Shown: positions 3,911 to 36,390, counted from the stretch's first letter. The stretch is DNA of 38,272 nt from Burkholderiales bacterium (GCA_947508055.1 CANNRR010000017.1:1-38272); one strand, 5' to 3'. The notes: a model not told the origin generated them from the sequence alone. Translations and numbers: made by a program.

Positions 3911-6900
3911 TTACCGCTTAAACGGCGTTGGTGCGACATCGCTTTTCATCCATTTGATGATCTCGGCACGAGCGCGATAAGGAACACTGCCGAAGCTTTT
4001 AAAACGGCCTTCGATATCTTGCAGGGAAGCCTTTTTAAAATCAAGTTCCGGCAAGGGATGCGCTTCGTCATTCATCACCAGACCCCAGTTCGATTTGAGC
4101 TGCCCACCCCTAAAACTCATTACCTTGTAGGACCAAACAGCGGCTGCCCAATTCTGGCTTGCATATGCATCAAAACTGGCTCGGGTGATTTGCCCACCCA
4201 GTTCGCCATCCAGGTCGGCCCAGGGCTGAAATTCACCCACGAATAATGGGGTGTCTGTCGCAACCATGCGGTCTTTCCACTTACAGAGACCGCTGCCTTC
4301 GGGCACACATTGCAGCCAGTTCTTGTGCACGTCCGCACCTGGCTTGCTCCATCCAAAATGCCCAGGATACGGGTGGGTTTCAAAGACAACGTTGTGCATG
4401 CCATGCTCACGGGGCTTGCCATATGCGCCTATTCCGTTGGGATGGTCTGCCAGGATGATGATGTGATGGGGGTCGATCTCCCGAATGCTCGCGTAGAGCT
4501 TCCTGCTAACCTCGGCCAACTGCACATCAGTGCTGCCCCAGGGCTCATTGAGCAGCCCATAGCCGGCAACCACCGGGTTGTCGCGGTAGCGCGCGGCGAT
4601 TTGCCGCCACAACCAGTCAGTGCGCCCCTGGTATTCGGCCGTTGTCCAGTAGAGATTTTGGTCGGCGCAGCCGCTGTGGTGTTCTTTGCCTTGCGCGCCC
4701 GCCGCGCCGTGCAAATCGAGAATGACATAGAGCCCGCGCGCCTTGGCCTGGGCAATTGCCCGGTCCAGGTAATGCCAGGCATCGGGTCGGAGGTGGCGTG
4801 GATTTTTTTCATCCTCGATCAGGCTCCAGATGAAGGGCAGCCGCACCATGTTCAAACCGAATTGGGGTATCAAATCCCAATCGCGGTCGGTGATCCAGTG
4901 GTCACGGAACAGTTTGATAAGGCGCTCGCGCTCCTGAAATCCGAATCGCTGATCCAGCACCACCTGCAGCGTGCACTGGTCATTGACTGCAGCGTTGTCG
5001 GCATAGCCCATCATCCAGAATTCGGGCAACAGCCAGTTGCCCAGGTTGACGCCCCTGAGCTGAACCGGGTTCCCGTCCGCGTTGATCCACTGTGTGCCCT
5101 GCGTGCGCAGCATCGAATGTGCATCTTCCATTAATTCAAAATTCGCGCGCAGGCGGATGTCGGTTGCGGACGCCCCAACCATCAGTTCGAAGTCACCAGG
5201 CTCCGCACCCCACTCCAATTTCGCGTTATAGAACGATAGCTTTTCGCGGTCTATCGTGAAGGTCACACGACGCGACTCACCCGCTTCGAGCCGCACTTTC
5301 TGGAAATCTTTCAACTCAAGAACTGGCCGCACAACGGACGCCACTTGGTCATGCAGATACAACTGCACAACTTCTTCGCCAGCGATCTTGCCTGTGTTCT
5401 TCAGTGTCAGTGATGCGGTGATTTTTTCGTCCCTGCGCATGCCGGTCTTGTCCAAGTGAAGGCCGGAGTATGCGAAGTCCGTGTAGCTAAGCCCGAAACC
5501 AAACGGATAGCGCGGGCTGCCCTGCAGGTCGATGTAGCCACTGACATAACCGCCGGCCTTGTCGCCGGCAGCTGGGCGACCGGTGTTGAATTTGTTGTAG
5601 TAGACGGGAATTTGTCCCTCGGTGCGCGGAAAGCTCATGGGCAACTTGGCGCTGGGGTTGTAGTCGCCTAACAGGACATCGGCAATGGCATTACCCGCTT
5701 CGCTGCCCAGCCACCAAGTGTAGAGAATGGCCGATACATTGTCCGCCACCCAGTTGAATACCAGCGGACGCCCCGCGTTGATCAACACCACAACCGGCTT
5801 GCCGGTAGCCTGCAGTGCCTTGACCAGTTCTTCCTGAACCCCTGGCAGACGCAGACTACTGCGGCTTTTGGCTTCGCCGCTCATGTCCCAGCGCTCCCCC
5901 ACGCTGACCACCACCACGTCCGCTCGCTTGGCAGCCTGGATTGCTTCTTCAAAGCCACTGCGATCCTCGCCCTCAATCTCGCTGCCTTTGGCATACAGCA
6001 ACTGGGTGTCGTTGGGAAGGTTGTTCTTGAGTCCGTCCCATTGCGTTACGATGAACTTCGAGTAGTCGACATCTGGCAGATTCACCGACCAGAAGCCATG
6101 GTTGTCCTTGACGGCTTTGACCATGGGACCAATGAATGCAATCGTCTTCACATTCCTGGACAGGGGCAGGAGCTTGTTGTCGTTTTTCAGCAGAACAATG
6201 CTTTTTGCGGCCATTTCGCGTGCCGCTTGCCGATGTGTTGTGTGTCCCACCAGGATCTTCTCGCGCTCGGCATTGCTAAAGCGAAACGGATCGTCAAACA
6301 AGCCCAGTTCGAACTTCTTGCGCAGCACGCGCCGCACGGAATCGTCCAGTACATTTTGCGTGACCTTTTTTTCAGTCAACAGCGCGGGCAAGTGGTCGCG
6401 GTAGGCATTGCTCTCCATATCCATGTCGCTGCCGGCGTTGATGGCCGACAGTGCGGCCGCTGGTTGGTCCTTCGCATAGCCGTGCGCCACCATTTCTCCG
6501 ATGGACCCCCAATCGGACACCACAAAGCCGGTGAACCCCCACTTGCCTTTGAGAATGTCGCGCTGGAGGTAGGCGTTGCCGGTGGCCGGAATGCCATTCA
6601 GGTCGTTGAAGGAGTTCATGAAGGTCGCCGCGCCCGCATCCAGAGCGGCCTTGAAGGGTGGCAAGTACGTCTCCCAGAGCATGCGCTCGCTCATGTCGAC
6701 CGCGTTGTAGTCACGACCACCTACCGCAGCGCCATAGGCGGCAAAGTGTTTGGCTGTGGCCATGACGGAGTCCAGATCGCCGAGCTTTTTGCCTTGAAAG
6801 CCCTTGACGCGAGCATAGGCAATCTTCGATGCCAAATAGGTGTCCTCGCCGGCTCCCTCCATCACACGCCCCCAGCGGGGGTCGCGTGCGATGTCGACCA

Positions 6901-7372
6901 TGGGCGCAAAGGTCCAGTGGATGCCACTGGCCGCTGCCTCGATAGCGGCGGTGCGTGCTCCACGCTCGACCGCGGCCAGATCCCAACTCGCGGCCTCTGC
7001 CAAAGGAATCGGAAATGTTGTCTTGTAGCCGTGGATCACATCCATTCCAAACAGCAGGGGAATCTTCAACCGTGACTGCATCGCCACTTCCTGGTACTGC
7101 CGGGTGGAGTTGGCTCCAATCACATTGAGTAACGAACCCACGTGACCATCGCGGATGCTTTTTTCTTGATCACCCTTGAAGGTGACCGGCCCGGTGGCCT
7201 GGGACTCGCCAGAGTATTGCGTGAGCTGACCCACCTTTTCCTGCACGGTCATACGCTGCAAGAGTGCCTCCACTTTGGCATCCACAGAATCGGCAGGAGC
7301 TGCATTGACCGACATTGGCGTACAGACATGGACAAGGCACAAGACGGCGCCCCATAGATTGACTTTATTCAT
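3911..7372 (-). CDS. Exported GH3 beta-glucosidase fused to C-terminal GH5-family (exo-beta-1,3-glucanase-like) domain
   Basis: Start reassigned to ATG at 7372 (MNKVNLWGAVLCLVHVCTPMSVNAAPADS, a signal peptide) because the upstream ORF start overlaps the ABC ATPase gene. GH3: KHFAAYGA, nucleophile FVVSDWGS, C-terminal FnIII-like region. GH5: RGVNLGNWLLPEFW, LDLHGAAGAQ, acid/base LLNEPWG, nucleophile FVGEFQPW. Confidence 0.88.
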   Translation of the reverse strand: MNKVNLWGAVLCLVHVCTPMSVNAAPADSVDAKVEALLQRMTVQEKVGQLTQYSGESQATGPVTFKGDQEKSIRDGHVGSLLNVIGANSTRQYQEVAMQSRLKIPLLFGMDVIHGYKTTFPIPLAEAASWDLAAVERGARTAAIEAAASGIHWTFAPMVDIARDPRWGRVMEGAGEDTYLASKIAYARVKGFQGKKLGDLDSVMATAKHFAAYGAAVGGRDYNAVDMSERMLWETYLPPFKAALDAGAATFMNSFNDLNGIPATGNAYLQRDILKGKWGFTGFVVSDWGSIGEMVAHGYAKDQPAAALSAINAGSDMDMESNAYRDHLPALLTEKKVTQNVLDDSVRRVLRKKFELGLFDDPFRFSNAEREKILVGHTTHRQAAREMAAKSIVLLKNDNKLLPLSRNVKTIAFIGPMVKAVKDNHGFWSVNLPDVDYSKFIVTQWDGLKNNLPNDTQLLYAKGSEIEGEDRSGFEEAIQAAKRADVVVVSVGERWDMSGEAKSRSSLRLPGVQEELVKALQATGKPVVVLINAGRPLVFNWVADNVSAILYTWWLGSEAGNAIADVLLGDYNPSAKLPMSFPRTEGQIPVYYNKFNTGRPAAGDKAGGYVSGYIDLQGSPRYPFGFGLSYTDFAYSGLHLDKTGMRRDEKITASLTLKNTGKIAGEEVVQLYLHDQVASVVRPVLELKDFQKVRLEAGESRRVTFTIDREKLSFYNAKLEWGAEPGDFELMVGASATDIRLRANFELMEDAHSMLRTQGTQWINADGNPVQLRGVNLGNWLLPEFWMMGYADNAAVNDQCTLQVVLDQRFGFQERERLIKLFRDHWITDRDWDLIPQFGLNMVRLPFIWSLIEDEKNPRHLRPDAWHYLDRAIAQAKARGLYVILDLHGAAGAQGKEHHSGCADQNLYWTTAEYQGRTDWLWRQIAARYRDNPVVAGYGLLNEPWGSTDVQLAEVSRKLYASIREIDPHHIIILADHPNGIGAYGKPREHGMHNVVFETHPYPGHFGWSKPGADVHKNWLQCVPEGSGLCKWKDRMVATDTPLFVGEFQPWADLDGELGGQITRASFDAYASQNWAAAVWSYKVMSFRGGQLKSNWGLVMNDEAHPLPELDFKKASLQDIEGRFKSFGSVPYRARAEIIKWMKSDVAPTPFKR

Positions 7373-7374
7373 AA

Positions 7375-7384
7375 GAAACGTTTC
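7375..7384. promoter_or_regulatory. Possible LacI-family operator core GAAACGTTTC
   Basis: Perfect 10-bp palindrome matching the core of the TGGAAACGTTTCCA sites elsewhere in the window. It lies between the ATPase stop and the GH3-GH5 start. Outer bases do not match the longer sites. Confidence 0.35.
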
Positions 7385-8471
7385 ACTTTGAAAGACTTCC
7401 CGTGGAAATACGCATGCCCGTCTGGCCATCAAACCAATGTGCATGCTCTTGCAAAAACTGCAACCCCACTACCTCGCCGACCCGCATTGCGATATGGGGT
7501 GCCGTGCGGGCGGTGATGTTCCCGGTCGCGGTCTTCGTCACGACAAACGTGTCGGCCCCGGTGGGTTCCACCAGTATCACCTCGCCGCGCCAAAGTGCAT
7601 CGGCGTTGAACTGAATGTGCTCTGGTCGCAACCCCAGTTGGACATCACCTGCCATTGGGCATGGCACGGGTGCGCTCCCACCTTGGAAGGAAAAGAGGCT
7701 TCCAGCCCTCGCAGGAACTGTGTGACCCGCTACGAAATTCATAGTAGGAGACCCGATGAAGCTGGCAACATAGGTGTTGGCTGGTCGGTTGTAAATATCG
7801 TCCGGTGTACCAATCTGTTGCAGGATGCCGTCTTTCATGACCGCAATGCGGCTGCCCAGAGTCATGGCCTCGATCTGGTCGTGCGTGACGTACACACTGG
7901 TGATGCCGCTGATCTGGTGCAGGCGCTTGATCTCTGCGCGCATTTCGACTCGCAGCTTGGCGTCCAGGTTGCTCAGCGGTTCATCGAACAGAAAGAGTTG
8001 CGGATCCCTTGCGAGCGCACGCCCCATAGCTACGCGTTGGCGCTGGCCACCCGAAAGCTGGGCGGGTCGGCGCTCCAGCAAATGCTCGATTTGCAGCATG
8101 GCCGCTACTTCGGCAATGCGTTTTGTGCGCGCATCTTTAGGGACCTTGCGCATTTCCAGGGCAAAGCCAATGTTTTCAGCTACGCTCATGGTCGGGTACA
8201 GCGCATAGCTCTGGAACACCATGGCAATGTCACGCTGGGCAGGCGCCACGCCAACCACGTTCTTACCGGCAATGCACAGTTCGCCTTCGCTGGGCTCCTC
8301 GAGTCCGGCAATGATGTTGAGCAGGGTGGACTTGCCACAACCAGATGGTCCTACCAGGATCAAAAACTCGCCGGGTGCAACCTCGATGTCAATGCGCTTA
8401 AGCACCTCGACCGCACCGGACCCCTTGCCATAAATTTTCCGGATACCGGCAATGTGTAATGAGGCTGCCAT
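7383..8471 (-). CDS. Carbohydrate ABC transporter ATP-binding protein (MsmK/UgpC/MalK family), importer 1
   Basis: Walker A GPSGCGKST, signature LSGGQRQRVAMGRAL, Walker B LFLFDEPLSNLDAKLR, C-terminal TOBE-like region. Confidence 0.93.
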   Translation of the reverse strand: MAASLHIAGIRKIYGKGSGAVEVLKRIDIEVAPGEFLILVGPSGCGKSTLLNIIAGLEEPSEGELCIAGKNVVGVAPAQRDIAMVFQSYALYPTMSVAENIGFALEMRKVPKDARTKRIAEVAAMLQIEHLLERRPAQLSGGQRQRVAMGRALARDPQLFLFDEPLSNLDAKLRVEMRAEIKRLHQISGITSVYVTHDQIEAMTLGSRIAVMKDGILQQIGTPDDIYNRPANTYVASFIGSPTMNFVAGHTVPARAGSLFSFQGGSAPVPCPMAGDVQLGLRPEHIQFNADALWRGEVILVEPTGADTFVVTKTATGNITARTAPHIAMRVGEVVGLQFLQEHAHWFDGQTGMRISTGSLSK

Positions 8472-11601: not shown

Positions 11602-11619
11602 ATTGGAACCGTTTCCAAT
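11602..11619. promoter_or_regulatory. LacI-family operator candidate ATTGGAACCGTTTCCAAT
   Basis: Near-perfect 18-bp palindrome with central CG, upstream of the importer-1 binding-protein gene. Matches the sites at 19932 and 25632. Confidence 0.75.
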
Positions 11620-11703: not shown

Positions 11704-13197
11704 CTACTGTTTTGGTAGCACTTTGGTGCTCGGTCCGCTTGCGTTCCAGACAAAGGTGGCGGCACTGCCAGGCTGCAAGCCATAGACAAAGGTCTGCCCT
11801 TGGGCACGCACGGAGAAGCGCCGCGCTGCGGGCGCTGAATTGAGCACGATCAGTGCAATGGAATGGTCGTCCGCATTCTCGAAGGCGACAGTTTCCAGGC
11901 CATCGACACCGGTTGTGGAGTCAATGCGGTGCGCACCGACACGCACAAAGCGGCTGGCGTGGGCCAGCGCGTAGTAGTCCAGATTGCGGGTGACTTCACC
12001 CGTTTTGGAGTTGATGATGACGATGCCGCGGCAGTCCGGGCAGCCGCCCTTGTGCGGACCGTAGTTCTCGTCCAGCGCCAGATTCCACATCAGTACGCTC
12101 TTGGCCCAGTTGCGGGTGGCCCCAATGACCAGGTTGCGCATGTTCCATGGGAAAGTCTCTTCCCACTTGGCATTGCCCTCGCCGCCGGAGCATTCAGTGA
12201 AATAGACATCCTTGTCCGGATAGCCGTTACGAATCCCCGACTGAACCGATGGGTCGCCCTTGTAACAATGCCAGGCAACACCGGCGACGTAGCCACGCGC
12301 CTTGGCGTTGCTCAGCACCTCAAGTGGTGCTTGCGGCTCGTCCCAGTTGTGGTCCCACTCCAGAATGCGGATATGCTTGGCACGCTTGGCAAACACGGGG
12401 CCCAGGTTCTCGCCAATGAAGCGAGCCCGACCTGGTGAATCAAAGCGCATGCCGGGGTAGTCCGGGGGCAGATAGTGCGGCTCGTTTTGCACGGTCACGG
12501 CGTAGAGCGGGATGCCCTGCGCTTCAATAGCGTCTGCAAACTTGCCGAAGTAACGGGCATATGCATCGTAGGCATCGGTCTTGAGTTCACCGCCAATCAG
12601 GCTGCCGCTGGTCTTCATCCACGCTGGCGCGCTCCAGGGCGAGGCCATCACCTTCAGATGGGGGTTGATCAGCATGGCCTGCTTGAGCACGGGCAGTACT
12701 TCGGCCTCCATGGGGGCGATGGAGAAATTTTCCAACGCAAAATCGGTCTGTCCCGCTGGCACATCGTCCAGAGAATAGTGTGAGAGCGAAAAATCTGACG
12801 CCCCTATCGTCAGCCGCGTGAAGCTGAAGCCAAGTCCTGGCGCAGCGCCAAACAGCTCTTGCATGAGCCGCTGGCGTTGGTCTGCACTCATGCGGTGCTG
12901 CATGAGCCATGCCGATGCGTCAGTGATATTGGCTCCAAACCCGACCATTTCCTGGTAGCGCCTGGTCGCGTTCACCTCAATGTTCAACGACAGAGGCGCT
13001 GCGCCCGTAAAACTCACCGGCGCTTCGGCAGATAGCAGCTTGGTCTTGTCGGTCAAGGTTACCCAGGGCCGAACAGTGCTGGCGGCGGCCGTGGTGGCAG
13101 CCAGCCCTTGCGTTCCAATCATGCCAATTAGCACCATGGCCACACTGGTCCATGCGTGCTTCCCCAGCTTCGGGTATTTCATCATATTGCTATCCAA
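11704..13197 (-). CDS. Exported GH30-family glycoside hydrolase (glucosylceramidase / endo-beta-1,6-glucanase-like)
   Basis: QEMVGFGANITDASAWLM, SPWSAPAWMKTSGSLIGG, acid/base TVQNEPHYLPPDYPGM, nucleophile region VYFTECSGGEG. N-terminal signal peptide. Confidence 0.88.
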   Translation of the reverse strand: MDSNMMKYPKLGKHAWTSVAMVLIGMIGTQGLAATTAAASTVRPWVTLTDKTKLLSAEAPVSFTGAAPLSLNIEVNATRRYQEMVGFGANITDASAWLMQHRMSADQRQRLMQELFGAAPGLGFSFTRLTIGASDFSLSHYSLDDVPAGQTDFALENFSIAPMEAEVLPVLKQAMLINPHLKVMASPWSAPAWMKTSGSLIGGELKTDAYDAYARYFGKFADAIEAQGIPLYAVTVQNEPHYLPPDYPGMRFDSPGRARFIGENLGPVFAKRAKHIRILEWDHNWDEPQAPLEVLSNAKARGYVAGVAWHCYKGDPSVQSGIRNGYPDKDVYFTECSGGEGNAKWEETFPWNMRNLVIGATRNWAKSVLMWNLALDENYGPHKGGCPDCRGIVIINSKTGEVTRNLDYYALAHASRFVRVGAHRIDSTTGVDGLETVAFENADDHSIALIVLNSAPAARRFSVRAQGQTFVYGLQPGSAATFVWNASGPSTKVLPKQ

Positions 13198-13235: not shown

Positions 13236-14309
13236 CTATAAACGCTGTTCAGAGCCGCTGTCAAACAGTGACACTTTCTGAACATCCAGATCGAAGCGCA
13301 CGATCTGATCCATGGCCACACCCAGGCTGCCTGACACTACGCAGGAGAGTAGATTGCCGTCCAGCGCGATCCACACCACATGGTGATTGCCCATGGGTTC
13401 GATCAACGACACAGTACCTTCATAGGGCCCGTCGTTTTGCATCAAAAGACTCTCGGGGCGAATGCCTAGAACCACTTCTTGCCCATCTCGCACGGCGCCT
13501 TGCCAGGGGTAGGAACTTATATCCAGCGCGATGCCGCCACAGACAAAGCTTTGGCCGGTGGATGCAGGGTGCAGCATGCCGCGAAGCATGTTCATGGCCG
13601 GTGAACCCAGAAAGCCCGCCACAAAGAGGTTGGCAGGCTTCTCGTACACCTGTCCCGGTGAGCCAATTTGCTGGATGTGCCCACTGCGCATCACCACGAT
13701 ACGGGTGGCCAGCGTCATGGCCTCCACCTGGTCGTGGGTGACGTAAATCATGGTGTTACCGAGGTTCTTGTGAAGCAGTTTGAGTTCGCGGCGCAGTTCG
13801 GCACGCAACTTGGCGTCCAGATTCGACAATGGCTCGTCAAACAGAAAAACGCCTGCTTCGCGTACCAGTGCACGCCCAATGGCCACTCGCTGGCGCTGGC
13901 CGCCAGAGAGTTGCGATGGCTTTCGTTGCAGCAGGGTTTGCAATTGCAACATCTCTGCGGCCCTGGTCACCCTGCGCTCAATTTCGGCCTTGGGCGTGCC
14001 ATTGATACGCAGCCCAAATGACATATTACGCTCCACCGTCATGGTGGGGTAAAGCGCATAGGACTGGAACACCATGCCGATGTTGCGCTCAGTAGGGTCG
14101 GCCCAGGTCATGTCTTTGCCGCCAATGTCAATACGCCCATCGGCCACATCAATCAATCCGGCAATGCTGTGCAGCAGCGTCGACTTGCCGCAGCCTGAGG
14201 GCCCCAACAGCACCAGGAACTCGCCATCGACGACATCCAGGCTCAAGTCCTTGATGACCTCGTTGTCATCAAAGCGAATGCAAAGATTGTGAATTTCAAC
14301 GCTAGCCAT
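13236..14309 (-). CDS. Carbohydrate ABC transporter ATP-binding protein (MsmK/UgpC family), importer 2
   Basis: GPSGCGKST, LSGGQRQRVAIGRALV, VFLFDEPLSNLDAKLR, YVTHDQVEAMTL. Confidence 0.93.
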   Translation of the reverse strand: MASVEIHNLCIRFDDNEVIKDLSLDVVDGEFLVLLGPSGCGKSTLLHSIAGLIDVADGRIDIGGKDMTWADPTERNIGMVFQSYALYPTMTVERNMSFGLRINGTPKAEIERRVTRAAEMLQLQTLLQRKPSQLSGGQRQRVAIGRALVREAGVFLFDEPLSNLDAKLRAELRRELKLLHKNLGNTMIYVTHDQVEAMTLATRIVVMRSGHIQQIGSPGQVYEKPANLFVAGFLGSPAMNMLRGMLHPASTGQSFVCGGIALDISSYPWQGAVRDGQEVVLGIRPESLLMQNDGPYEGTVSLIEPMGNHHVVWIALDGNLLSCVVSGSLGVAMDQIVRFDLDVQKVSLFDSGSEQRL

Positions 14310-14321
14310 GTGTGAATCCTC

Positions 14322-15215
14322 TTATCCCTTGACCGCACCAGCTGCGATACCACGCACAAACCAACGCCCCGAGACGAAATACACCACCAGTGGCACCATG
14401 GAAGTCAAAATGGTGGCTGCCATGTTGACGTTGTACAGGCGTGTGCCGGTGGTCGTATTGATGACGTTGTTGAGCTGCACCGTCATGGGTAGGTTGTCGC
14501 GCCCGGCAAACACCAGACCCAGTATGTAGTCGTTCCAGACACCGGTGATCTGCATGATGGCCGCCACGATAATGATAGGGGTGGACATGGGCAGCATGAG
14601 TTGCAGAAATATCCTGAAAAAGCCACCGCCATCAATGCGTGCGGCCTTGAACAGCTCCTGCGGAATGGTCAGGTAGTAGTTGCGAAACAGCAGCGTCATG
14701 ACCGGCATGCTGAAGATAATGTGAATGACCACAATGCCGGGCAGTGAACCAAAAAGGCCCACGCTGGCCAGAATGCGCACCAACGGGAACATCATCACTT
14801 GCACGGGAATAAACGCACCCATCATCAAGATGCCAAACAATAGCTGTGAGCCGCGCGGACGCCAAAATGACAATGCGTAACCATTGAGCGCACCCAGCAT
14901 GATCGGAAATATGGTGCTGGGGATGACGATCCACATTGAGTTCGAAAATCCACCCCGGATCCCGTCACAAGAAACCCCGGTGCAGGCGGAAGTCCACGCA
15001 GCGACCCACGGTTCCACCGTGACACTCACCGGGAAAGCGAAGATGTTGCCCAGTCGAATCTCGTCCATCGACTTGAACGACGTCACCAGCATGATGTACA
15101 GCGGCATCAAAAAAAACAGCGAAGCTGACAGCAGGAAGGCGTAGATGCCGATACGCGCCGGGCTCAAGCGCCAGGGACGACGCGCCGGCGCAAGTGGCGT
15201 GGCTAGGGCGGTCAC
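14322..15215 (-). CDS. Carbohydrate ABC transporter permease (MalG-like), importer 2
   Basis: Multi-TM. EAA-like QELFKAARIDGGGFFRIFLQLMLPMSTPI. Start overlaps the previous gene's stop. Confidence 0.92.
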   Translation of the reverse strand: MTALATPLAPARRPWRLSPARIGIYAFLLSASLFFLMPLYIMLVTSFKSMDEIRLGNIFAFPVSVTVEPWVAAWTSACTGVSCDGIRGGFSNSMWIVIPSTIFPIMLGALNGYALSFWRPRGSQLLFGILMMGAFIPVQVMMFPLVRILASVGLFGSLPGIVVIHIIFSMPVMTLLFRNYYLTIPQELFKAARIDGGGFFRIFLQLMLPMSTPIIIVAAIMQITGVWNDYILGLVFAGRDNLPMTVQLNNVINTTTGTRLYNVNMAATILTSMVPLVVYFVSGRWFVRGIAAGAVKG

Positions 15216-16108
15216 TTCGACGCAACCTTCCTGGCAGCCCGACTGCGGGCGTAAAGGATAGGCGCCACCAGTGCTGCCACCGTGAACAGCAACACGATCG
15301 ACCCGGCAGAGGCCAAGGCGATATTGGCCCTGCCAAAAAGGTGGTCCATGATGAATTTCGCCGGCACCTCGCTTGCGGTGCCAGGCCCGCCCTGCGTCAT
15401 GGACACAACAGAATCAAATACCTTAACCACGGCCGTCAATAGCAGCACGAATACGGTGGCCACCGATGGCCCGATCATTGGCAAAACGATGGAGACATAA
15501 ACACGCCATGTCGGAATTCCATCCAGACGCGTTGCCTTCCAAATTTCTTCATCAATGCCCCGCAGGCCCGCCAACAGCATGGCCATGACAAGCCCTGATG
15601 CTTGCCAAACGGTGGCAATCACGATGGTGTATATCACCATGTCCTGGTCGATGATCCAGTCAAAAGTAAAGTCCTCATAACCCATTTGTCGCACGGCCTG
15701 CTGAAGCCCGTTGCCCGGATTGAGCATCCACTGCCACACCAAACCGGTAGCAACGAATGACATGGCGTAGGGATACAAAAACACCGTGCGAAAGAGCCCC
15801 TCACCCATCACCTTTTGATCAATGAAAACCGCCAACAAGAAGCCAATCAACATACATGCGGCGATAAACAGCACACCGTACAAGGCCAAGTTTTGCAGCG
15901 ACAGCATCCAGCGGTCGTTATTGAACAGGCGCACGTACTGTGCAAATCCTATCCACTCGTCCGATGGAAAGGTGCGTGAATTGGTGAACGATATTCTGAG
16001 CGACCAGAGCACCGTTCCCAGGTAGGCAACGATGACGGTTACAGCCATCGGCAACAATGCCGCCCACGACACAGCAAGCCGCAAGAATTGCCGGGGATGG
16101 ATCTTCAT
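15212..16108 (-). CDS. Carbohydrate ABC transporter permease (MalF-like), importer 2
   Basis: MKIHPRQFLRLAVSWAALLPMAVTVIVAYLG... with EAA-like DEEIWKATRLDGIPTWRVYVSIVLPMIGP. Start chosen at ATG 16108, 17 nt after the binding-protein stop. Confidence 0.9.
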   Translation of the reverse strand: MKIHPRQFLRLAVSWAALLPMAVTVIVAYLGTVLWSLRISFTNSRTFPSDEWIGFAQYVRLFNNDRWMLSLQNLALYGVLFIAACMLIGFLLAVFIDQKVMGEGLFRTVFLYPYAMSFVATGLVWQWMLNPGNGLQQAVRQMGYEDFTFDWIIDQDMVIYTIVIATVWQASGLVMAMLLAGLRGIDEEIWKATRLDGIPTWRVYVSIVLPMIGPSVATVFVLLLTAVVKVFDSVVSMTQGGPGTASEVPAKFIMDHLFGRANIALASAGSIVLLFTVAALVAPILYARSRAARKVASK

Positions 16109-16124
16109 GTAGAGAGTAGCACCA

Positions 16125-17360
16125 TCAGTTCGCCAAAGCGGAGGAGATGTCTTTTTGAACCTTCTCAACCGGTACGTTTTTATTCCAGTAGGCGGTCAAA
16201 ATATCATTCAACGCACCATTTTGGTCAGGATTCATGTATACCTCGCCATTGCCCAGCTGACGCGACTTGTCCTTCATGATGGCCAGTCCCTTTTGGGCAC
16301 AAATATCCATCTTGGACGAGTCCACATCTGTGCGAACCGGAATAGACCCCTTCTTGTTGCTGAACTCCACCTGGGTCGATGGGACCAGCATGATTCCAGC
16401 CAGCATCTTCTGGGCCTTGATGGCCTCTGCATTGGCGGTCTTCGGGAATACGAACACATCGCCTTGAATGATGTAGGCAGACTTTGGTCCAAATCCCGGG
16501 ATGCAGCCGTAGTCTTTACCAGGCAATTGATTGGCCAGTGCGAACTCGCCCTTCGCCCAGTCCCCCATGATTTGGACACCGGCCTTGCCGGTGATCAACA
16601 TCGCTGTCGCATCATTCCAGTTGCGCCCTGGCGCCGCCTTGTCGACATAGGATTGCAGACGTTTGAAATTCAACAAAACTTCCTTGAAGGCTGGTGACTG
16701 AATTGCCTTTGCATCGTGGTCGCGAAACACTTTCAGGTACAGGTCGGAGCCACCCACGTTTGCCAGCATCGCTGTGAAGACGATACTCTCTTGCCAGGGT
16801 TGCCCCCCGTGCGCCAGAGGGATCAACCCCGCCGCCTTGAGTTTGTCCAGAGCTGAAAATAGCTCATCGATGCTTCTGGGTTCGCTTGCAATTCCCGCTT
16901 GCTTGAAAGCAGACTTGGAATACCAGAACCAGGTCGGCATATGGATATTGACAGGCGCAGCATAGAAATGCCCCTTGACCCTGACCACATTGAGAACTGC
17001 CTCGGGCAAGAATTTCTCCCATCCATCCCTGGTGGCCACGTCATCTACGTTGTTGAGCATGCCCTGCTCAACCAGATCAAGAAACTGTTTCGAAGTATTG
17101 AACTGCGCCGCGGTTGGCGGGTTACCACCGACGATACGGTTGACGGCGACCGAACGGGCCTGCTCTCCCACTGCAATGGCCGTGTCAACCCACACGCCTC
17201 CTGCAGCGCTATAGGCTTCCGAAAACTTTCTCACTGCAGCGGATTCTCCGCCGGAGGTCCACCAGTGAATGACCTCTGCCTTGGGCCCTGCAGCATGGGC
17301 CACACCCAACCAGGACAGCAGGACTATCAAAGAGCCCATTTTTTTTGTCGCGCGTGACAT
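16125..17360 (-). CDS. Extracellular sugar-binding protein (COG1653-like), importer 2
   Basis: MSRATKKMGSLIVLLSWLGVAHAAGPKAEVIHWWTSGGESAAVRKFSEAY. Start ATG at 17360 overlaps the GH1 stop (ATGA-type coupling). Confidence 0.9.
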   Translation of the reverse strand: MSRATKKMGSLIVLLSWLGVAHAAGPKAEVIHWWTSGGESAAVRKFSEAYSAAGGVWVDTAIAVGEQARSVAVNRIVGGNPPTAAQFNTSKQFLDLVEQGMLNNVDDVATRDGWEKFLPEAVLNVVRVKGHFYAAPVNIHMPTWFWYSKSAFKQAGIASEPRSIDELFSALDKLKAAGLIPLAHGGQPWQESIVFTAMLANVGGSDLYLKVFRDHDAKAIQSPAFKEVLLNFKRLQSYVDKAAPGRNWNDATAMLITGKAGVQIMGDWAKGEFALANQLPGKDYGCIPGFGPKSAYIIQGDVFVFPKTANAEAIKAQKMLAGIMLVPSTQVEFSNKKGSIPVRTDVDSSKMDICAQKGLAIMKDKSRQLGNGEVYMNPDQNGALNDILTAYWNKNVPVEKVQKDISSALAN

Positions 17361-18727
17361 CACTGCACACCTCCTAAGAATGTCCGGTACCACTGGCCAC
17401 TGGCCTTCAAGGTGCGCTTCTGGTTTTTAAAATCTACATACGTCAAACCGAACCTTCGCAAGTAACCTTCGGCCCACTCAAAGTTGTCCAGCAAGCTCCA
17501 GGCGAAGTAACCTTTGACGGGAACGCCCATGCCAACAATCTTCTTCACGGCCAGCAGATGTCGTACCAGGTAGCTGCGGCGCTGAATGTCTTCAATTGAG
17601 CCCGCTTCGGTCACAACGTCGTCATAGGTCGAACCGTTCTCGGTTATGTATATCTCCGCCGGACCGTAGTCATGCGCCACGCGGTTCAGCAGTTCGACCA
17701 TGCCTTCGGGTGATACTTCCCAGCCAAATGCTGTTCGCTCGACATCTTTGGTTTCAATCACCCGTGTGGACATCACGCCCGCACCCGGTGCGTCAGTCAC
17801 AATCTCGGGAAAGTAGTAGTTGACGCCCAGAAAGTCTGTAGGCGCAGCAATGGTTGCAAGATCTCCGTCTTGAACCTCGGGTGCGTTCTCACCCAATATT
17901 TTCCAGATGTCTTCTGGATAACCCCTGCCATAGAGTGGATCCAGAAACCAGCGATTTCTCAGACCATCGTGGCGACGCGTTGCTGCAGCGTCCTGCATGC
18001 TTTCAGACGCAGGCTTCAGCGGGTGCAGGCTGAGTGCCGCCCCGATGCGGGCATTGGCAACGTTACGCCGAAGGACTGGTACTGCCAGGCCGTGCGACAC
18101 CAGCACGTTGTGACAAACCTGCAGGGCAGTTTTAAAATTCTTGATTCCAGGTGCATGCACGCCCTCATGGTTTCCATGAAACGCGGTGCACCAGGGTTCG
18201 TTGTGGGTAATCCAATGTTTGATGCGGTCACCCAAATGGTGGCTGACTACATCGGTGTATTGAACAAAGGCGTCCACGGTGTCACGGCTTGCCCAACCAC
18301 CCTGGTCTTGCAGAGCCTGCGGCAAGTCCCAGTGATACAGCGTGACCCACGGCTCCAAGCCACGCTCCAGCATCCCATCGACCAGCCGGGAGTAGTAATC
18401 GAGTCCCTGCAGATTCGGTGTTGTTCCTCGCCCCAGCGGAAAAATTCGGGGCCACGCGATTGAAAATCGATAGGCATTGGTCCCCAGATTGCGGGCAATA
18501 TCCAGGTCCTGCGGCCAACGGTGGTAATGGTCACAGGCAACGTCGCCACTGGACTGATCACGAACATGACCCGGTGTTGCGCAAAAACGGTCCCAGATTG
18601 ACTCCCCTCGGCCATCTTCATGTGCCGCACCCTCAATTTGGTAGGAAGAGGTAGAGCTCCCCCATCGGAAGTCATTCGCAAAGTCGCTGCGCCTGATTGA
18701 TGCGAGGTCTAAATGGTTGTTCAGCAT
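17360..18727 (-). CDS. GH1 beta-glucosidase (cytoplasmic)
   Basis: FRWGSSTSSYQIEGAAHEDGRGESIWDRF (GH1 N-terminal signature), acid/base WITHNEPWC, nucleophile IYITENGS. No signal peptide. Start uncertain (ORF opens at 18757; ATG at 18727 preferred). Confidence 0.93.
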   Translation of the reverse strand: MLNNHLDLASIRRSDFANDFRWGSSTSSYQIEGAAHEDGRGESIWDRFCATPGHVRDQSSGDVACDHYHRWPQDLDIARNLGTNAYRFSIAWPRIFPLGRGTTPNLQGLDYYSRLVDGMLERGLEPWVTLYHWDLPQALQDQGGWASRDTVDAFVQYTDVVSHHLGDRIKHWITHNEPWCTAFHGNHEGVHAPGIKNFKTALQVCHNVLVSHGLAVPVLRRNVANARIGAALSLHPLKPASESMQDAAATRRHDGLRNRWFLDPLYGRGYPEDIWKILGENAPEVQDGDLATIAAPTDFLGVNYYFPEIVTDAPGAGVMSTRVIETKDVERTAFGWEVSPEGMVELLNRVAHDYGPAEIYITENGSTYDDVVTEAGSIEDIQRRSYLVRHLLAVKKIVGMGVPVKGYFAWSLLDNFEWAEGYLRRFGLTYVDFKNQKRTLKASGQWYRTFLGGVQ

Positions 18728-18761
18728 TGTTATTGGTATCTCGTTTACAAATTTCACGCAC

Positions 18762-19772
18762 TCAAGTTTGAGCGATGGCTATTGATGATCGCCAGGTGAC
18801 GCTAACGGGAAATTCTCTGACGATGGAATGGTTCGAGCCGTAGCAACGATTGAGCAGATGACGCAGGGCATTCAAGGTGATCTCGCGCCACGGTATATGC
18901 ACCGATGTCAGTCTTGGTGCCGAATATTCAGCGCTGGCAGTATCGTCATATCCGAGCACAGAAATGTTCTGCGGAACAGATATTCCCATTTGCTGAAAGA
19001 ACGACAGGGCGCCTACCGCCATTTCGTCATTCGCACAAAACAGCGCGGTAAATTTGTTCCCGGACGCAATGAGCGCACTTGCTGCTGCCCACCCCCCCTC
19101 TGGGGAGAAATCGCTCGAGATGGTGGTGATTGCACTGGTGTCAATGCCATTGCGACCCAGCTCTGCCATAAAGGCCGCTATCCGCATAACGTTGTCTGGG
19201 GCACTCTGTGGTCCGGCGATCACCGCGAACTGCCGGTGTCGCAACTGCAACAGCGTTTGAGCCGCCAAGATGCCGCCCCTGGTGTGGTCTGCGTTGAAGC
19301 ATTGGTCGGGGGAATCTTCCAAATGAAAATTCAATGCAACAAGCATGTCTTTCTTGGGACCAATGGATCGAATATCGTCTTTCGTCAACGCATTGCTCAT
19401 CACCACGAGACCATCGCAGCCACGCTCAACCAAGAAATTCACGCCCTCAATCGCTTGCTGGCGTGCATCACCGTCACCGCATCCAAATGCGACAACCATG
19501 TGGAGTCCCGAGACACGCAGTTCCGTGTCAATGGTCTGAAGGATGGGCGTATAGAAGGTACCCTTGAGCAGGGGTATGTACACGCCAATCATTTGTGATG
19601 ACCCCGACAACAAGGTCCTGGCCGCGTGAGATGGTCTGAAATCAAGGGCCTCAATCGCCTGCTTGACTTTCAATGCTGTGGCTGCGGATACCGCGCCTTT
19701 GCCGTTGACAACCCGGGACGCGGTTCCGACACCTACACCGGCGAGCTGTGCTACATCTCTGATTGTGGCCAA
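18762..19772 (-). CDS. LacI-family transcriptional regulator
   Basis: ATIRDVAQLAGVGVGTASRVVNGKGAVSAATALKVKQAIEALDFRPSHAARTL (LacI HTH), then periplasmic-binding-like effector domain. Probable TTG start at 19772 preceded by GGAG; the ORF track opens further upstream at a GTG (19820). Confidence 0.9.
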   Translation of the reverse strand: MATIRDVAQLAGVGVGTASRVVNGKGAVSAATALKVKQAIEALDFRPSHAARTLLSGSSQMIGVYIPLLKGTFYTPILQTIDTELRVSGLHMVVAFGCGDGDARQQAIEGVNFLVERGCDGLVVMSNALTKDDIRSIGPKKDMLVALNFHLEDSPDQCFNADHTRGGILAAQTLLQLRHRQFAVIAGPQSAPDNVMRIAAFMAELGRNGIDTSAITTISSDFSPEGGWAAASALIASGNKFTALFCANDEMAVGALSFFQQMGISVPQNISVLGYDDTASAEYSAPRLTSVHIPWREITLNALRHLLNRCYGSNHSIVREFPVSVTWRSSIAIAQT

Positions 19773-19931
19773 TATCCTGCTCCGTATTGAAATTCTGAAA
19801 ATGAGCGAGCCTTGATTCACGCTTGGCGGTGCGGTTCCGCATCGAATTCTGCTGTGCCCTTGTCACAAATGGGATTGCGACGCTGCGAGCACGCCTGGCG
19901 GTCACCACATACAATTCAAAAACACCCGAAC

Positions 19932-19945
19932 TGGAAACGTTTCCA
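19932..19945. promoter_or_regulatory. LacI-family operator candidate TGGAAACGTTTCCA (perfect palindrome)
   Basis: Perfect 14-bp palindrome in the divergent lacI/gdpd intergenic region. Confidence 0.8.
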
Positions 19946-20081
19946 TCCAGAGTAATGTAGCACCGGAAAAGTTCATTCATTACCCGGGAATTCCCTATAG
20001 CAGAGTATGTGATGTCGATTAGCCGTACACAATAACATGTGGCTACTATGGCGTCCCATCGTCCAATTTCAGAGGCAATAT

Positions 20082-21095
20082 ATGCGATTTTTTGGTTCGT
20101 CTGGTTTCCGCGGTGGACCTGCAATTCTCGGTTTGACCGTCGCTCTAACCCTTGCCGTCGTGATGCCGACCACCCATGCGTTTGACATGCAGTCACATCG
20201 CGGTGGTCGGGGATTGCTTCCAGAAAACACTTTGGCTGCGTTTGAGAATGCGATTCGCATGGGCACAACCACTATTGAGCTCGACATCGCCATCACGTCC
20301 GATGGCATTCCCGTGGTGTCGCATGACCCAGCACTCAATCCTGCCTACACCCGTGACGCCAATGGGCAATGGCTCACCCGGCATGAACCACTGATCAAGA
20401 ACATGACACTGGCTGAAGTTCAGACCTATGACATTGGTCGACTCAACCCTGGACACCCTTACGGTAGGGAGTTTCCAGAGCAACAACCGCGCGATGGGCA
20501 GCGCATTCCGGCATTGGCGGACCTCTTTAAACTGGTCAACGACATGGGCGCACAAGACCTCCATTTCGACATGGAGACCAAGATCAACCCGCACCAGCCC
20601 AATAACACCTTAGCGCCAGAAGATTTTGTAAAAACCTTACTCAAAGTGATACATGAAGCCGGTATGACGCGGCGTGTGATGGTGCAAAGCTTTGACTGGC
20701 GCACACTGGAGTTGCTCCACGCATTGGAACCCGATATACGCACCATGTACCTCACGGTCGAGTGGGATGACTTCAACACCGTACGTGACCCCGCATGGAC
20801 GGCTGGACACAGGATTCAACAGTTCAAAGGTTCGGTACCACACATGGTTCGGGCATCTGCCGGCACAGCGCCGGGCATTATCTGGGCTCCCAACTTCAAA
20901 AATCTGACGCCTGAGCTGACTAAGACAGCCCAGTCGCTTGGCCTGCAGGTCATCCCCTGGACCGTGAATGACAAGCCGCAAATGGATCGCTTGTTGGGCT
21001 TTGGTGTTGATGGCATCATCAGCGACTACCCAGATCGTCTGCGCAGTGTCATGGCAGAAAGAGGCATGGCGCTACCCAAGGGCGTTCAAAAGTAA
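20082..21095 (+). CDS. Exported glycerophosphodiester phosphodiesterase (GDPD family)
   Basis: MRFFGSSGFRGGPAILGLTVALTLAVVMPTTHA signal peptide, then SHRGGRGLLPENTLAAFENAIRMGTTTIELDIAITSDGIPVVSHDP (GDPD core) and C-terminal VDGIISDYPDRL. Start ATG 20082 preceded by GAGG. Confidence 0.92.
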   Translation: MRFFGSSGFRGGPAILGLTVALTLAVVMPTTHAFDMQSHRGGRGLLPENTLAAFENAIRMGTTTIELDIAITSDGIPVVSHDPALNPAYTRDANGQWLTRHEPLIKNMTLAEVQTYDIGRLNPGHPYGREFPEQQPRDGQRIPALADLFKLVNDMGAQDLHFDMETKINPHQPNNTLAPEDFVKTLLKVIHEAGMTRRVMVQSFDWRTLELLHALEPDIRTMYLTVEWDDFNTVRDPAWTAGHRIQQFKGSVPHMVRASAGTAPGIIWAPNFKNLTPELTKTAQSLGLQVIPWTVNDKPQMDRLLGFGVDGIISDYPDRLRSVMAERGMALPKGVQK

Positions 21096-21121: not shown

Positions 21122-22633
21122 TCAATTGACTTTCGCCGCGCAGTGCTTCGAAATGTATTCGGCGTGGGTGGGCATAACATCAACGCACTTTTTGATCACC
21201 GATTGGATGTCTCCCAGGAATGCGGTAATTTCGTCTCTGCTGCGCAGATCAACAAGCGGGTGATATCCCTGCGGACGAATGCCCTGCCCATTCATTACCT
21301 GCACCCAGCTCAATTCGGCAAATAGCTCAGAGCCCTCGCGAAATACGCGTCCATTACTGGCATACAAATCGATTTTGTGCTGCAGAGTTTCCGGTATCTC
21401 CATACTTTGGCAATGCCGCCAGAATGGTGAATCATTCCGCTGCGTGGCCTTGTAGTGCAAGATGATGAAATCGCGAATGCGCTCATACTCAAACTGGGTT
21501 TGTTTGTTGTATTCCGCTATGTCGGCCCTATGAAATCCAGAGTTGGGAAAGAGGCTGATGGTGCGCAAAATTGCGGATTGAATCAAATGAATATTGGTCG
21601 ATTCGATCGGCTCAAAAAAGCCACTCGAAAGTCCGATGGCGACGCAATTTTTTCGCCAGGTTTCCTGTCGCCGACCGGGAACAAATGGTATGTAGCGCGG
21701 ATCAGCCAACTGCTCGCCATCAAGGTTACCCAATAAGACCGCAGTGGCTTCGTCCTGGTCCATGAAACGGCTTGAGTAGACGTGTCCATTGCCGATCCGA
21801 TGTTGTAAGGGAATGCGCCACTGCCAACCCGCCGAGCGGGCTGTTGATCGCGTGTAAGGTACCAATGGCTCTACCGAAGCACAAGGTACCGCAATGGCAC
21901 GGTCACAGGGCAACCAGTGTGACCAGTCTTCGTACGGAACTTGCATCGCCGTCCCGATCAGAATAGCACGTGTGCCCGAGCAATCAATGAAAAAGTCGCC
22001 GGCTATTCTTTCACCGCTTTGAAGGACGACGGCTTCAATGAATCCGTCAGACTCCCGCAGCACGGTTTCCACAATGCGGCCTTCGGTCCGAACCACACCG
22101 CGCTGCTCGGAAAGGGTGCGCAGATATTTGGCGTAGAGTCCGGCATCAAAATGGAAGGCGTTGGCGATATCCCCCAGCGGGGAATCTGCCATTTCAGGAA
22201 CGCTTCGCATGTATTTTGAATATTTTGGTGCAACCGTGTTGATTGAGTAATCACCCAGACCAGATTGCAACCCCTCCTGATGCATCTTGAGCCAGTAGTG
22301 GTGGCATGCGACGGTGCCTAGTTCCTGCCCGATTTTGCCGAAACCGTGGATATAGGCTTCACCCAAACTATGCCAATTGACAAATTCAATCCCCAACTTG
22401 AATGTGCCTTGGGTCTGACGGAGAAACTCGTCTTCATCGATCCCTAACGCACTGTTAAATACTTTGATTCCCGGGATGGTCGCTTCACCAACCCCGATTG
22501 TGGCAATCTCATCGGATTCCACCAGTTGAATTCGGTAATGCTCGCCCAGAAGTTTCGAGAACGCGGCGGCCGTCATCCAGCCCGCCGTGCCACCACCCAC
22601 AATCACAATATTCTTCACCAGCTCGATTGCCAT
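21122..22633 (-). CDS. Flavin-dependent halogenase, tryptophan-halogenase family (PF04820-like)
   Basis: FAD motif IVGGGTAGWMTAA, halogenase motif WQWRIP (WxWxIP), catalytic-Lys context QGTFKLGIEFVNW, catalytic-Glu context GFFEPIESTNIHL. Start at MAIELVKN, ATG 22633, with AAGGGGA upstream. Confidence 0.9.
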   Translation of the reverse strand: MAIELVKNIVIVGGGTAGWMTAAAFSKLLGEHYRIQLVESDEIATIGVGEATIPGIKVFNSALGIDEDEFLRQTQGTFKLGIEFVNWHSLGEAYIHGFGKIGQELGTVACHHYWLKMHQEGLQSGLGDYSINTVAPKYSKYMRSVPEMADSPLGDIANAFHFDAGLYAKYLRTLSEQRGVVRTEGRIVETVLRESDGFIEAVVLQSGERIAGDFFIDCSGTRAILIGTAMQVPYEDWSHWLPCDRAIAVPCASVEPLVPYTRSTARSAGWQWRIPLQHRIGNGHVYSSRFMDQDEATAVLLGNLDGEQLADPRYIPFVPGRRQETWRKNCVAIGLSSGFFEPIESTNIHLIQSAILRTISLFPNSGFHRADIAEYNKQTQFEYERIRDFIILHYKATQRNDSPFWRHCQSMEIPETLQHKIDLYASNGRVFREGSELFAELSWVQVMNGQGIRPQGYHPLVDLRSRDEITAFLGDIQSVIKKCVDVMPTHAEYISKHCAAKVN

Positions 22634-22646
22634 GTTTATCCCCTTC

Positions 22647-22688
22647 AAAAAAAAAGGTCCCTGTCGCCAATTAGACGACAGAGACCTT
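22647..22688 (-). terminator. Rho-independent terminator/attenuator between TonB receptor and halogenase genes
   Basis: Minus-strand AAGGTCTCTGTCG-TCTAATTGG-CGACAGGGACCTT followed by a T-run: 12/13 bp stem, 9 T's (22647-22655). Confidence 0.8.
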
Positions 22689-22701
22689 ACCCGCGAAAAG
22701 C

Positions 22702-25542
22702 TTAGAACTTGTAGGTTACGCCAATCAGCGTTTGGCGACCATAGGTGTGGTACTTCTCCGGCATTAGACGCTTCAAAGGATCTACCGAATCGTCATTTAA
22801 CATGGTCCGGTAAGGCGTGTCATTCAAGTTGTTAACTTGCAACAAAATAGACAACCCCTTGTACGCACCGGTCTCAAAGGAGTAGCCAAACTGCAGATCG
22901 GTTAGCGTTTCCTCTTCAATCGTAGCCAACGACGTATCAATCCAGGTGGCACGCACTTCCGTCACAAACTGTGAACGATAACGCTGCCCAATACGTGCCT
23001 GGAAGCCATTCTTTTCATAATAAGCAGTCAGGCTTCTGACTTGACCTGACAGACCTTCCATTGGCTTGGTGAGATCACGGTCGCCGTTCTTGTTTTTCTG
23101 TCCAGGAACATCGCTGCGCGTATTGGACAGACTACCGATGACTCCAAAACCATCCAAACTAGAACTCAACAAGGCACCGTCCAACGCAACGCTGAACTCG
23201 GTACCCTGAATGATGCCACCGGTGCCATTCGCCGGTCTCGTGTATTCACCGATGAGGGTCTTTGCCGAGGCAAGGTTTGGCAACCCGGCAAAGTTGTAGG
23301 CGTAATCGGTCTGGCTATAGATGGTTGAGTGCAGTCGCTTCTCAAACACCGCAGCGGCCACATAGCTCCGTTTGCCGAAGTATTTTTCCACCGACAGGTC
23401 AAGCGCGGTGGCACGCCAAGGCTCAAGCCCCGGATTGCCACCACTAGCGCTAGGCATTCCGGCCTTGGCGCCAGTGGTCGCGATCGAAACGCCGCCCATC
23501 CCGGCGCGCATTGCTTCCATGTCCGGCCGGGCTACGACCTGAGCTGCGCCAAATCGAACCAAAGTATTGGCCGCCACGTCCGCAGCCAAATTCAGGCTGG
23601 GCAACACATCCGTGTAGTTCTTCCCGCCAGACTGCGGTACCGCTACATTCTTCACGCTGTCCCACGCCACCCCGGTTGAAGTTTGATTGGCCTGAACCAC
23701 CTGCACTCCAAAGTTGCCACGCACAGGAACGCCAGCACTGAAGTCCAGGCCCAATTTGCCAAACACGGTAGTTACTTTTTCCTGTACACCCCATACGCGG
23801 CCGGGCGCCTGGTCGGCTCCATCTACAGTCTGGTTGAGGAGGTTGCTGGCCAGCAAATCGCGCATATCAAAACTGACTAAAGCAGGATTACCGGCAAATC
23901 CGAGATTTGCTGGGCTTTGCAGTATGCCAGCCGGGATCGGCGCACAGAAGCTACCATCCGTGAAACAGGACGTGCCATTCTTCAAGGAATAGCGAACCTG
24001 GCTGCTATCGTTGTCCTTCTTGCGATCGGTATAGTTCACCCCACCTTCAAAATTACTGACGGGTCCCCATTCCAGATCACGCTTCGCTGACAGGCGTAAA
24101 GACTGCATTTCATCCGAAACAGTAATCGGTGAGCCGGCTCCCACCCTAGGAATACCATTCACCAACCCCCACGCCCCTATTCCACGCAATTGTATGGCGC
24201 CCGGAGCCGCCCAATTGAGCGTCGTAGGGTAGCGCGATGTGCCATTTCCCGTCTCGTTATAGAAGTTGGTGAAGCCCGATAGTGCCGTAGGCGACGCGGT
24301 GATTTCACCCTTGAATTCGTCACGTGTTGCCTTGGAATAGCTCAGATCTGCCTCTGTCTTCCAGTCGCCCAGTTTGATTTCATTTTTCCAGCCCAATGCA
24401 GTGATCTTGTCTTCACGCTTGCCATAACGCGTCAGCATGTACGGATCCACATTGGACACGGTGCCGGTTTGCATGACAGAGCCACCGGCCATGTCAATGG
24501 TCTTGTAATTGCTGAAAATCGGACCGCCGGAGACTGGCGCACCTGGTGTTCCATTGCCACTCCAGTCAGGCATCAGGTTGACTTGAAACTCACGCCCTTG
24601 AGAAGCCTGGGAAAACTTGGAGTAATACAAATCCACGGTGCTGCGCACATCTTTGTTAGGCCTGAACTCGAGTACACCCATGAGTCCATCCCGGACCGAA
24701 GTAGTCGACACCACGCTCGCATCAAAACCTTGCAAAGTACTGGGTGCCTTTTTGTCATCTACATTCTCAAGTCCACGGAAGCCACCCCACCAGATGGCTG
24801 AGTTCCCCCACCACCATGAATTTTGGTGTTTTTCCTGTCCAGGGCTGTCCAAATGGGCAAAACCCAGCGCGACACCGATCGTGTTGTCGGCGAACTGGTC
24901 GATATAGGAAGCACTAAGGCGCGCGCCATTGGCGGTTGTTCCGGCGATCTGCGCTCCGTTGCTGGTGGATTCGCCACGCACATTCACACTCATCTGACGA
25001 CCCCGCAAGTCCAGAGGACGTACGGTCTGCATGTTCACGGTGCCAGACAAGCCCTGCGAGCCTAATGCCGCATCAGGCGTTTTGTACACGGTGGCCGAGT
25101 TGATCAACTCGGACGGAAACTGATCGAACTCAACAGAGCGCCCACCGGCGGTAGAGGCCAACTCGCGCCCGTTGAGCAAGGTCAGACCAAATGCGGGTGC
25201 CATGCCACGAATCGAGATGCCCTGCGTGCGACCGTCCACACGCTGTCCAGCTAAACCCGGCAAACGGGCCAATGACTCTGCAATACTTACGTCCGGCAGT
25301 TTGCCGATGTCTTCTGCCGTCACAACCTCCACGATCGAGTCGGAATTCTTCTTGATGGCAATCGAGTTTTCGATACTTCCACGAAGTCCGGTAACCGTTA
25401 CGGTGTTTAGGCTTGCCTGTTGAGCAAAGGCGGCGGTCGAGGTAAGAAGCAGAGTCGCGCACGCCGCAGCAACCGGACTGATGCGCAAGCGCGCACGCTG
25501 CTCAACCATGCTCTCACGCCGCTGACTGACAGAATTGTTCAT
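22702..25542 (-). CDS. TonB-dependent receptor (TIGR01782/Xanthomonas-Caulobacter carbohydrate type)
   Basis: Signal peptide, then plug domain LNTVTVTGLRGSIENSIAIKKNSDSIVEVVTAEDIGKLPDVSIAESLARLPGLAGQRVDGRTQGISIRGM and typical C-terminal beta-strand ending in F (TLIGVTYKF). Confidence 0.93.
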   Translation of the reverse strand: MNNSVSQRRESMVEQRARLRISPVAAACATLLLTSTAAFAQQASLNTVTVTGLRGSIENSIAIKKNSDSIVEVVTAEDIGKLPDVSIAESLARLPGLAGQRVDGRTQGISIRGMAPAFGLTLLNGRELASTAGGRSVEFDQFPSELINSATVYKTPDAALGSQGLSGTVNMQTVRPLDLRGRQMSVNVRGESTSNGAQIAGTTANGARLSASYIDQFADNTIGVALGFAHLDSPGQEKHQNSWWWGNSAIWWGGFRGLENVDDKKAPSTLQGFDASVVSTTSVRDGLMGVLEFRPNKDVRSTVDLYYSKFSQASQGREFQVNLMPDWSGNGTPGAPVSGGPIFSNYKTIDMAGGSVMQTGTVSNVDPYMLTRYGKREDKITALGWKNEIKLGDWKTEADLSYSKATRDEFKGEITASPTALSGFTNFYNETGNGTSRYPTTLNWAAPGAIQLRGIGAWGLVNGIPRVGAGSPITVSDEMQSLRLSAKRDLEWGPVSNFEGGVNYTDRKKDNDSSQVRYSLKNGTSCFTDGSFCAPIPAGILQSPANLGFAGNPALVSFDMRDLLASNLLNQTVDGADQAPGRVWGVQEKVTTVFGKLGLDFSAGVPVRGNFGVQVVQANQTSTGVAWDSVKNVAVPQSGGKNYTDVLPSLNLAADVAANTLVRFGAAQVVARPDMEAMRAGMGGVSIATTGAKAGMPSASGGNPGLEPWRATALDLSVEKYFGKRSYVAAAVFEKRLHSTIYSQTDYAYNFAGLPNLASAKTLIGEYTRPANGTGGIIQGTEFSVALDGALLSSSLDGFGVIGSLSNTRSDVPGQKNKNGDRDLTKPMEGLSGQVRSLTAYYEKNGFQARIGQRYRSQFVTEVRATWIDTSLATIEEETLTDLQFGYSFETGAYKGLSILLQVNNLNDTPYRTMLNDDSVDPLKRLMPEKYHTYGRQTLIGVTYKF

Positions 25543-25631: not shown

Positions 25632-25649
25632 ATTGGAACCGATTCCAAT
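25632..25649. promoter_or_regulatory. LacI-family operator candidate ATTGGAACCGATTCCAAT
   Basis: 18-bp near-perfect palindrome, about 90 bp upstream of the TonB receptor start. Same family as the sites at 11602 and 19932. Confidence 0.72.
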
Positions 25650-26003: not shown

Positions 26004-26077
26004 TGTAGTGGGCTTTTTGCTATACATTTGCCAATTCGCCGGAAATGCACAACCCACACGTCACTTTTCAATGCACC

Positions 26078-28132: not shown

Positions 28133-28136
28133 AACC

Positions 28137-30176: not shown

Positions 30177-30220
30177 CTTCCAAACGGCAGTACACAGGGC
30201 AGAATCACGATGAGGTTCCG

Positions 30221-32761: not shown

Positions 32762-32773
32762 ACAAAGAAGTAC

Positions 32774-34632: not shown

Positions 34633-34633
34633 T

Positions 34634-36383: not shown

Positions 36384-36390
36384 GAATTCC

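Follow-up and report, generated by a model that had tools for sequence, protein, structure and literature searches.

A flavin-dependent halogenase gene carried behind TonB-dependent receptor genes: architecture, recurrence and candidate substrates

The receptor gene, the halogenase gene and the gap between them

A 38,272-nucleotide stretch of DNA from a Burkholderiales bacterium (GCA_947508055.1, CANNRR010000017.1:1-38272; hereafter the window, meaning this whole stretch) carries on its minus strand a gene for a TonB-dependent receptor (TBDR; 22702..25542) followed by a gene for a flavin-dependent halogenase (FDH; PF04820; 21122..22633). The receptor is 946 residues long and scores 573 bits against TIGR01782 (TonB-Xanth-Caul; cut-off 310). 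It contains a Plug domain (PF07715), and its AlphaFold2 model (pLDDT 83, pTM 0.84) is recognized by Foldseek as a TBDR fold. Among the receptors compared in this work it belongs to a sharply bounded glucan-locus clade, P1, which is set apart from all others.

The halogenase matches PF04820 with 638 bits over model positions 1-455 (455 of 458). Its open reading frame (ORF) can be read from a TTG (21122-22648, minus strand, 508 residues), but the ATG at 22633, which reading of the junction shows to be preceded by a Shine-Dalgarno sequence (GAAGGGG), is the likelier start. The flavin adenine dinucleotide (FAD) motif GGGTAG (GxGxxG), the WxWxIP motif (WQWRIP, residues 275-280), the catalytic K84 (in TFKLGIEF) and E349 (in FFEPIES) are all present, and both catalytic residues are invariant among close relatives. 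In a wider set of 190 FDH sequences, one of them a short fragment, the lysine is found in 181 and the glutamate in 178 (~95%). The nearest PDB entries are 6y1w (547 bits), 9luq (533 bits) and 6frl (478 bits); the alignment to 6y1w runs gap-free through the C-terminal cap-loop region, consistent with a short cap loop and an open substrate site. By its sequence, the product is thus an intact FAD-dependent enzyme that falls in the Xcc4156/BrvH branch of the tryptophan-halogenase family. It shows no apparent signal peptide and is therefore presumably cytoplasmic.

Departures from the catalytic lysine and glutamate occur mostly in multi-gene FDH arrays (two to five copies), observed at eleven loci. 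Usually one copy per array lacks one or both residues while staying nearly full length, possibly as a retained non-catalytic partner subunit. Viral contigs are also rich in FDH relatives (PHROG 2928), which at ~28-35% identity are too distant to serve as a guide to function.

Receptor and halogenase genes are co-directional, the receptor first, with 68 bp between its stop codon and the halogenase ATG. This gap is filled by a hairpin resembling an intrinsic terminator (22654..22688, minus strand), with a 15 bp stem and a T-run; only the Shine-Dalgarno sequence remains before the ATG, leaving no room for a promoter. Such hairpins were found in 37 of 61 TBDR-to-FDH gaps versus 11 of 98 other same-strand gaps (Fisher p = 6e-11), in none of 17 gaps from FDH to another gene, in none of 11 from another gene to FDH, and in 3 of 61 base-shuffled gaps. 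Gaps leading from a TBDR to some other gene contained one in 3 of 11 cases, so receptor genes in general may account for part of the terminator signal. Given the enrichment, the simplest reading is that FDH probably depends on read-through of the hairpin and is made in far smaller amounts than the receptor.

Recurrence of the pair and the company it keeps

PF04820 matches number exactly two in the source genome, as do TIGR01782 receptors above the cut-off, and each match adjoins a receptor. Across 37 genomes of the genus, all six that encode a full FDH fall among the eight with TIGR01782 receptors (Fisher p = 1e-5, with no correction for kinship). Scanning GTDB genomes yielded 80 FDH loci in alpha-, beta- and gammaproteobacteria, most of them immediately preceded by a same-strand TBDR gene. 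In 20 of these genomes every FDH was listed, giving 142 matches in 114 clusters (up to 15 matches per genome), and flanking sequence was fetched for clusters left unresolved by the first listing. Allowing SapC, Cupin_8 or DUF6445 genes to lie between the two, 73 of the 114 clusters abut a TBDR, and 105 have one within 8 kb. This is far above chance: with ~1,076 TBDR candidates from a first look at 92 Mb, or about one per 85 kb, adjacency within 0.7 kb would be expected for an estimated ~5-7% of clusters. An earlier note on this DNA had described an intact halogenase paired with a TonB receptor, and had suggested counting the co-occurrence of PF04820 with TIGR01782 receptors. The motifs and profile match bear out the first point, the adjacencies the second, and the count proved strongly positive.

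The pair therefore constitutes a two-gene module that is widespread and not tied to any one sugar, usually with a terminator-like hairpin between its genes. Units with P1 receptors occur in starch/maltodextrin loci (GH13, GH97 and GH31 glycoside hydrolases, glucokinase, phosphorylase) and in beta-glucan loci (GH1, GH3, GH30), while other receptor classes are found with GH43 and GH9 (xylan and cellulose loci). A tree of 189 FDHs shows 9 changes of receptor class, versus 57 when labels are shuffled, and 15 changes of a crude sugar-locus label, versus 28. FDH phylogeny thus follows receptor class while the sugar genes vary. Within the units, genes for SapC (PF07277), Cupin_8 (PF13621), DUF6445 and 2OG-FeII_Oxy_5 recur (at six loci that were noted individually and at others); Cupin_8 and 2OG-FeII_Oxy_5 are oxygenase-like, and DUF6445 and SapC are of unknown function. 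No description of the module was found in the open literature searched, paywalled work being outside that scope.

The home locus and its operators

A LacI-type operator, TTGGAACCGATTCCAA, lies upstream of the receptor gene (25633..25648). Its palindrome, TTGGAAMCGWTTCCAA, was found at three sites, a count reached in 0 of 100 shuffles. The other two operators of this type stand upstream of a LacI-GH1-ATP-binding cassette (ABC) operon (19931..19946) and near the start of a second ABC binding-protein gene (11603..11618). Because its operator is shared with these LacI and ABC genes, the TBDR-FDH pair is probably part of the beta-glucan regulon.

The genes of the beta-glucan locus lie to the left of the halogenase, on the minus strand. 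They encode a LacI-family regulator (18762..19820; best model 212 bits), a GH1 beta-glucosidase (17360..18757; TIGR03356, 624 bits), a sugar ABC transporter comprising a binding protein, two permeases and an ATPase (13236..17393), a GH30 glycosidase (11704..13197; PF02055, 134 bits) and a two-domain GH3-GH5 glycosidase (3911..7444; PF00933, PF01915, PF00150). A second ABC system and an esterase complete the set. The GH3 and GH5 domains are joined in a single ORF of 1177 residues, and a further ORF (2241-3881) fuses an esterase domain to an Exo_endo_phos domain. Between FDH and the LacI operon, on the opposite strand, lies a gene for a glycerophosphodiester phosphodiesterase (20037-21095). A receptor, glycosidases, a transporter and a regulator with shared operators are thus found together, as in glycan loci of the carbohydrate utilization (CUT) type. 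In two relatives (G013 and G025), orthologous FDHs, 76-79% identical, are part of the beta-glucan operon itself, flanked by MalK and GH30, and in G013 a receptor gene heads the gene run that holds the ortholog.

To the right of the receptor, and divergent from it, is an N-acetylglucosamine (GlcNAc) phosphotransferase system (PTS) locus. This GlcNAc/chitin locus (26045-37506) includes an HPr-EI fusion, an EII transporter, GH20 and GntR, together with a NagA-like amidohydrolase, a SIS protein, a GDSL protein and an HGSNAT-like protein. Membership of FDH in it was ruled out, as the locus is divergent and the operator links the receptor to the beta-glucan genes. The sugar locus reported in the earlier note is therefore real, and is the LacI/ABC beta-glucan locus on the left rather than the GlcNAc PTS locus on the right. 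Its remark that no biosynthetic gene cluster surrounds the halogenase also stands, the annotated neighbors being glycan uptake genes with no recognized biosynthetic genes among them in the window.

Candidate substrates and known systems

If the sugar changes from locus to locus and the receptor remains, what does the enzyme act on? The recurrent pairing and the placement of the terminator suggest that it serves the receptor system. We propose that FDH works in the cytoplasm and exclusively for the uptake system of its receptor; supplied with FADH2 by a general reductase, it would halogenate, or possibly hydroxylate, an aromatic side chain in one of that system's polypeptides. The receptor itself is hypothesized as the first candidate substrate, to be modified before export, with little enzyme acting on a protein made in large amounts; such dosing would fit an enzyme reached only by read-through of the terminator behind the receptor gene. 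We give this reading, with the receptor as no more than the leading candidate, a probability of roughly 0.38. The narrower proposition, that FDH halogenates or hydroxylates the partner receptor before export and that the whole receptor class carries a halogen-type modification dosed by the intergenic terminator, is unlikely.

In the nearest characterized enzymes, Xcc4156 and BrvH, the active site is open; both accept indole, do not turn over free tryptophan, and use bromide preferentially or exclusively; their native substrate is stated to be unknown, and the authors propose peptides like that of MibH (PMC7336383, PMC5945002). In BrvH, bromination of indole is weak and none is seen on tryptophan, and a second FDH is reported upstream (PMC5945002). 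The word “TonB” is absent from both papers. The open sites of these enzymes, together with the gap-free alignment to 6y1w, would be consistent with a peptide-type site in the window FDH.

Could the substrate instead be a small molecule? It is possible, though doubtful, that FDH halogenates a small free indole or phenol of internal or imported origin and is induced together with glycan uptake, to make, for example, a signal or defence compound while food is available. Free indole is indeed brominated in vitro by BrvH, weakly, and by the Xcc enzymes (PMC5945002, PMC7336383), and the LacI-type operator is common to the FDH-TBDR pair and the glycan locus. Yet the tightest linkage is to the receptor, no aromatic-metabolism gene is constant or recurs in the named neighbor clusters, and the many FDH copies of a single genome lie mostly beside TBDRs, across unrelated sugar loci. 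The substrate would still be a protein if FDH, rather than being a halogenase in the cell, worked as a flavin monooxygenase hydroxylating one of its aromatic residues, like QhpG or LodB in the maturation of quinone cofactors. This is quite unlikely: although oxygenase-like genes are co-located and there are weak matches to both LodB (28 bits) and QhpG (24 bits), which are protein-modifying flavoenzymes, these scores are far under the curated cut-offs (400 and 240, respectively). The lysine and glutamate needed for halogenation through hypohalous acid (HOX) are, moreover, kept in ~95% of relatives, and Xcc4156 and BrvH halogenate in vitro (PMC7336383, PMC5945002). A non-halogenating flavoenzyme, named in the earlier note as an alternative, would be compatible with the sequence, but the same two points speak against it.

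The earlier note suggested that FDH may act on a host or algal aromatic imported by the receptor; such an aromatic could be carried by the glycan, for example as ferulate or a phenolic aglycone. Phenolics can occur on plant and algal glycans, and the FDH gene adjoins that of the receptor. The distribution of the module tells against this proposal, which we consider very improbable: the unit is found in beta-glucan, xylan and cellulose loci and also in starch/maltodextrin loci, where an aromatic substituent is not expected, and a genome may hold up to 15 FDH matches. Since the sugar genes vary in this way, a single glycan-borne aromatic is unlikely as the common substrate; in addition, the enzyme appears cytoplasmic, and neither an esterase nor an aromatic-degradation gene is a constant companion. 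Lastly, the linkage might reflect co-regulation or joint transfer alone, FDH doing no work on the receptor system. Modules do move between loci and some P1 receptors lack an FDH, but adjacency is kept across three proteobacterial classes and across receptor classes, FDH phylogeny tracks receptor class, and the arrangement with a terminator in between is conserved, which makes this explanation improbable.

Several observations nevertheless weigh against a polypeptide of the receptor system as the substrate. No TBDR lies within 8 kb of about 9 of the 114 FDH clusters. About a third of P1 receptors in wider samples have no adjoining FDH, and some genomes with such unpaired receptors have none at all; unpaired P1 receptors being common, the enzyme is an accessory, not needed for the receptor fold. 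Receptors outside P1 are a mixed group, the class labelled P2 being heterogeneous, and a comparison inside single genomes found no difference in FDH identity between pairs of like and unlike receptor class. Nor did comparison of receptor columns between FDH-adjacent and unpaired P1 receptors identify a target residue. Trp458, in a long loop that the AlphaFold2 model makes probably extracellular, was present in all 63 paired receptors of a first sample and absent from 4 of 7 unpaired ones; in larger samples 115 of 116 FDH-adjacent P1 receptors carried it, as did 9 of 29 unpaired ones, the other 20 lacking it. On the receptor tree, however, Trp458 changes only twice versus seven times for FDH adjacency, so nearly all receptors without it trace to one loss. 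It was rejected as the modified residue on account of these two changes, its retention in FDH-less lineages and the one paired receptor that lacks it. No other aromatic column was found to separate paired from unpaired P1 receptors. The column that differs most between them, G318, was likewise set aside; the window receptor has E there.

Halogenases of the Xcc4156/BrvH branch have structures and in vitro activity but no known natural substrate, and their travel with TonB receptors, behind a terminator, shows where such a substrate might be sought. Were the receptor indeed modified, nutrient uptake would have gained a new type of protein modification, and peptide halogenases a new source.

The best solved relative of the window FDH is Xcc4156 from Xanthomonas campestris (6y1w), aligned over residues 9-505; halogenation has been seen in vitro for that enzyme, whereas the window FDH is known from sequence alone. 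BrvH (Brevundimonas-type; 6frl) also has an open site and is more distant. The free-tryptophan halogenases PrnA and RebH have the fold, the FAD motif and the catalytic lysine and glutamate in common with the window FDH, but their matches stop near residue 430-433, leaving the substrate-cap region unaligned. Neither the long cap loop with which that group contacts the amino and carboxyl groups of tryptophan, as judged by alignment, nor a secondary-metabolite cluster was found for the window FDH. MibH (5uao), with an open site and activity on tryptophan within a peptide, is a functional model only; it is distant (192 bits), and lanthipeptide genes were not recognized in the window. At the level of the locus, the closest likeness is to the CUT loci of Xanthomonas and Caulobacter, which also combine a TBDR, glycosidases, a regulator and an inner-membrane transporter under a shared operator. 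To our knowledge a halogenase lies outside the usual definition of such loci, and what the window adds to them is an FDH fixed behind receptor and terminator.

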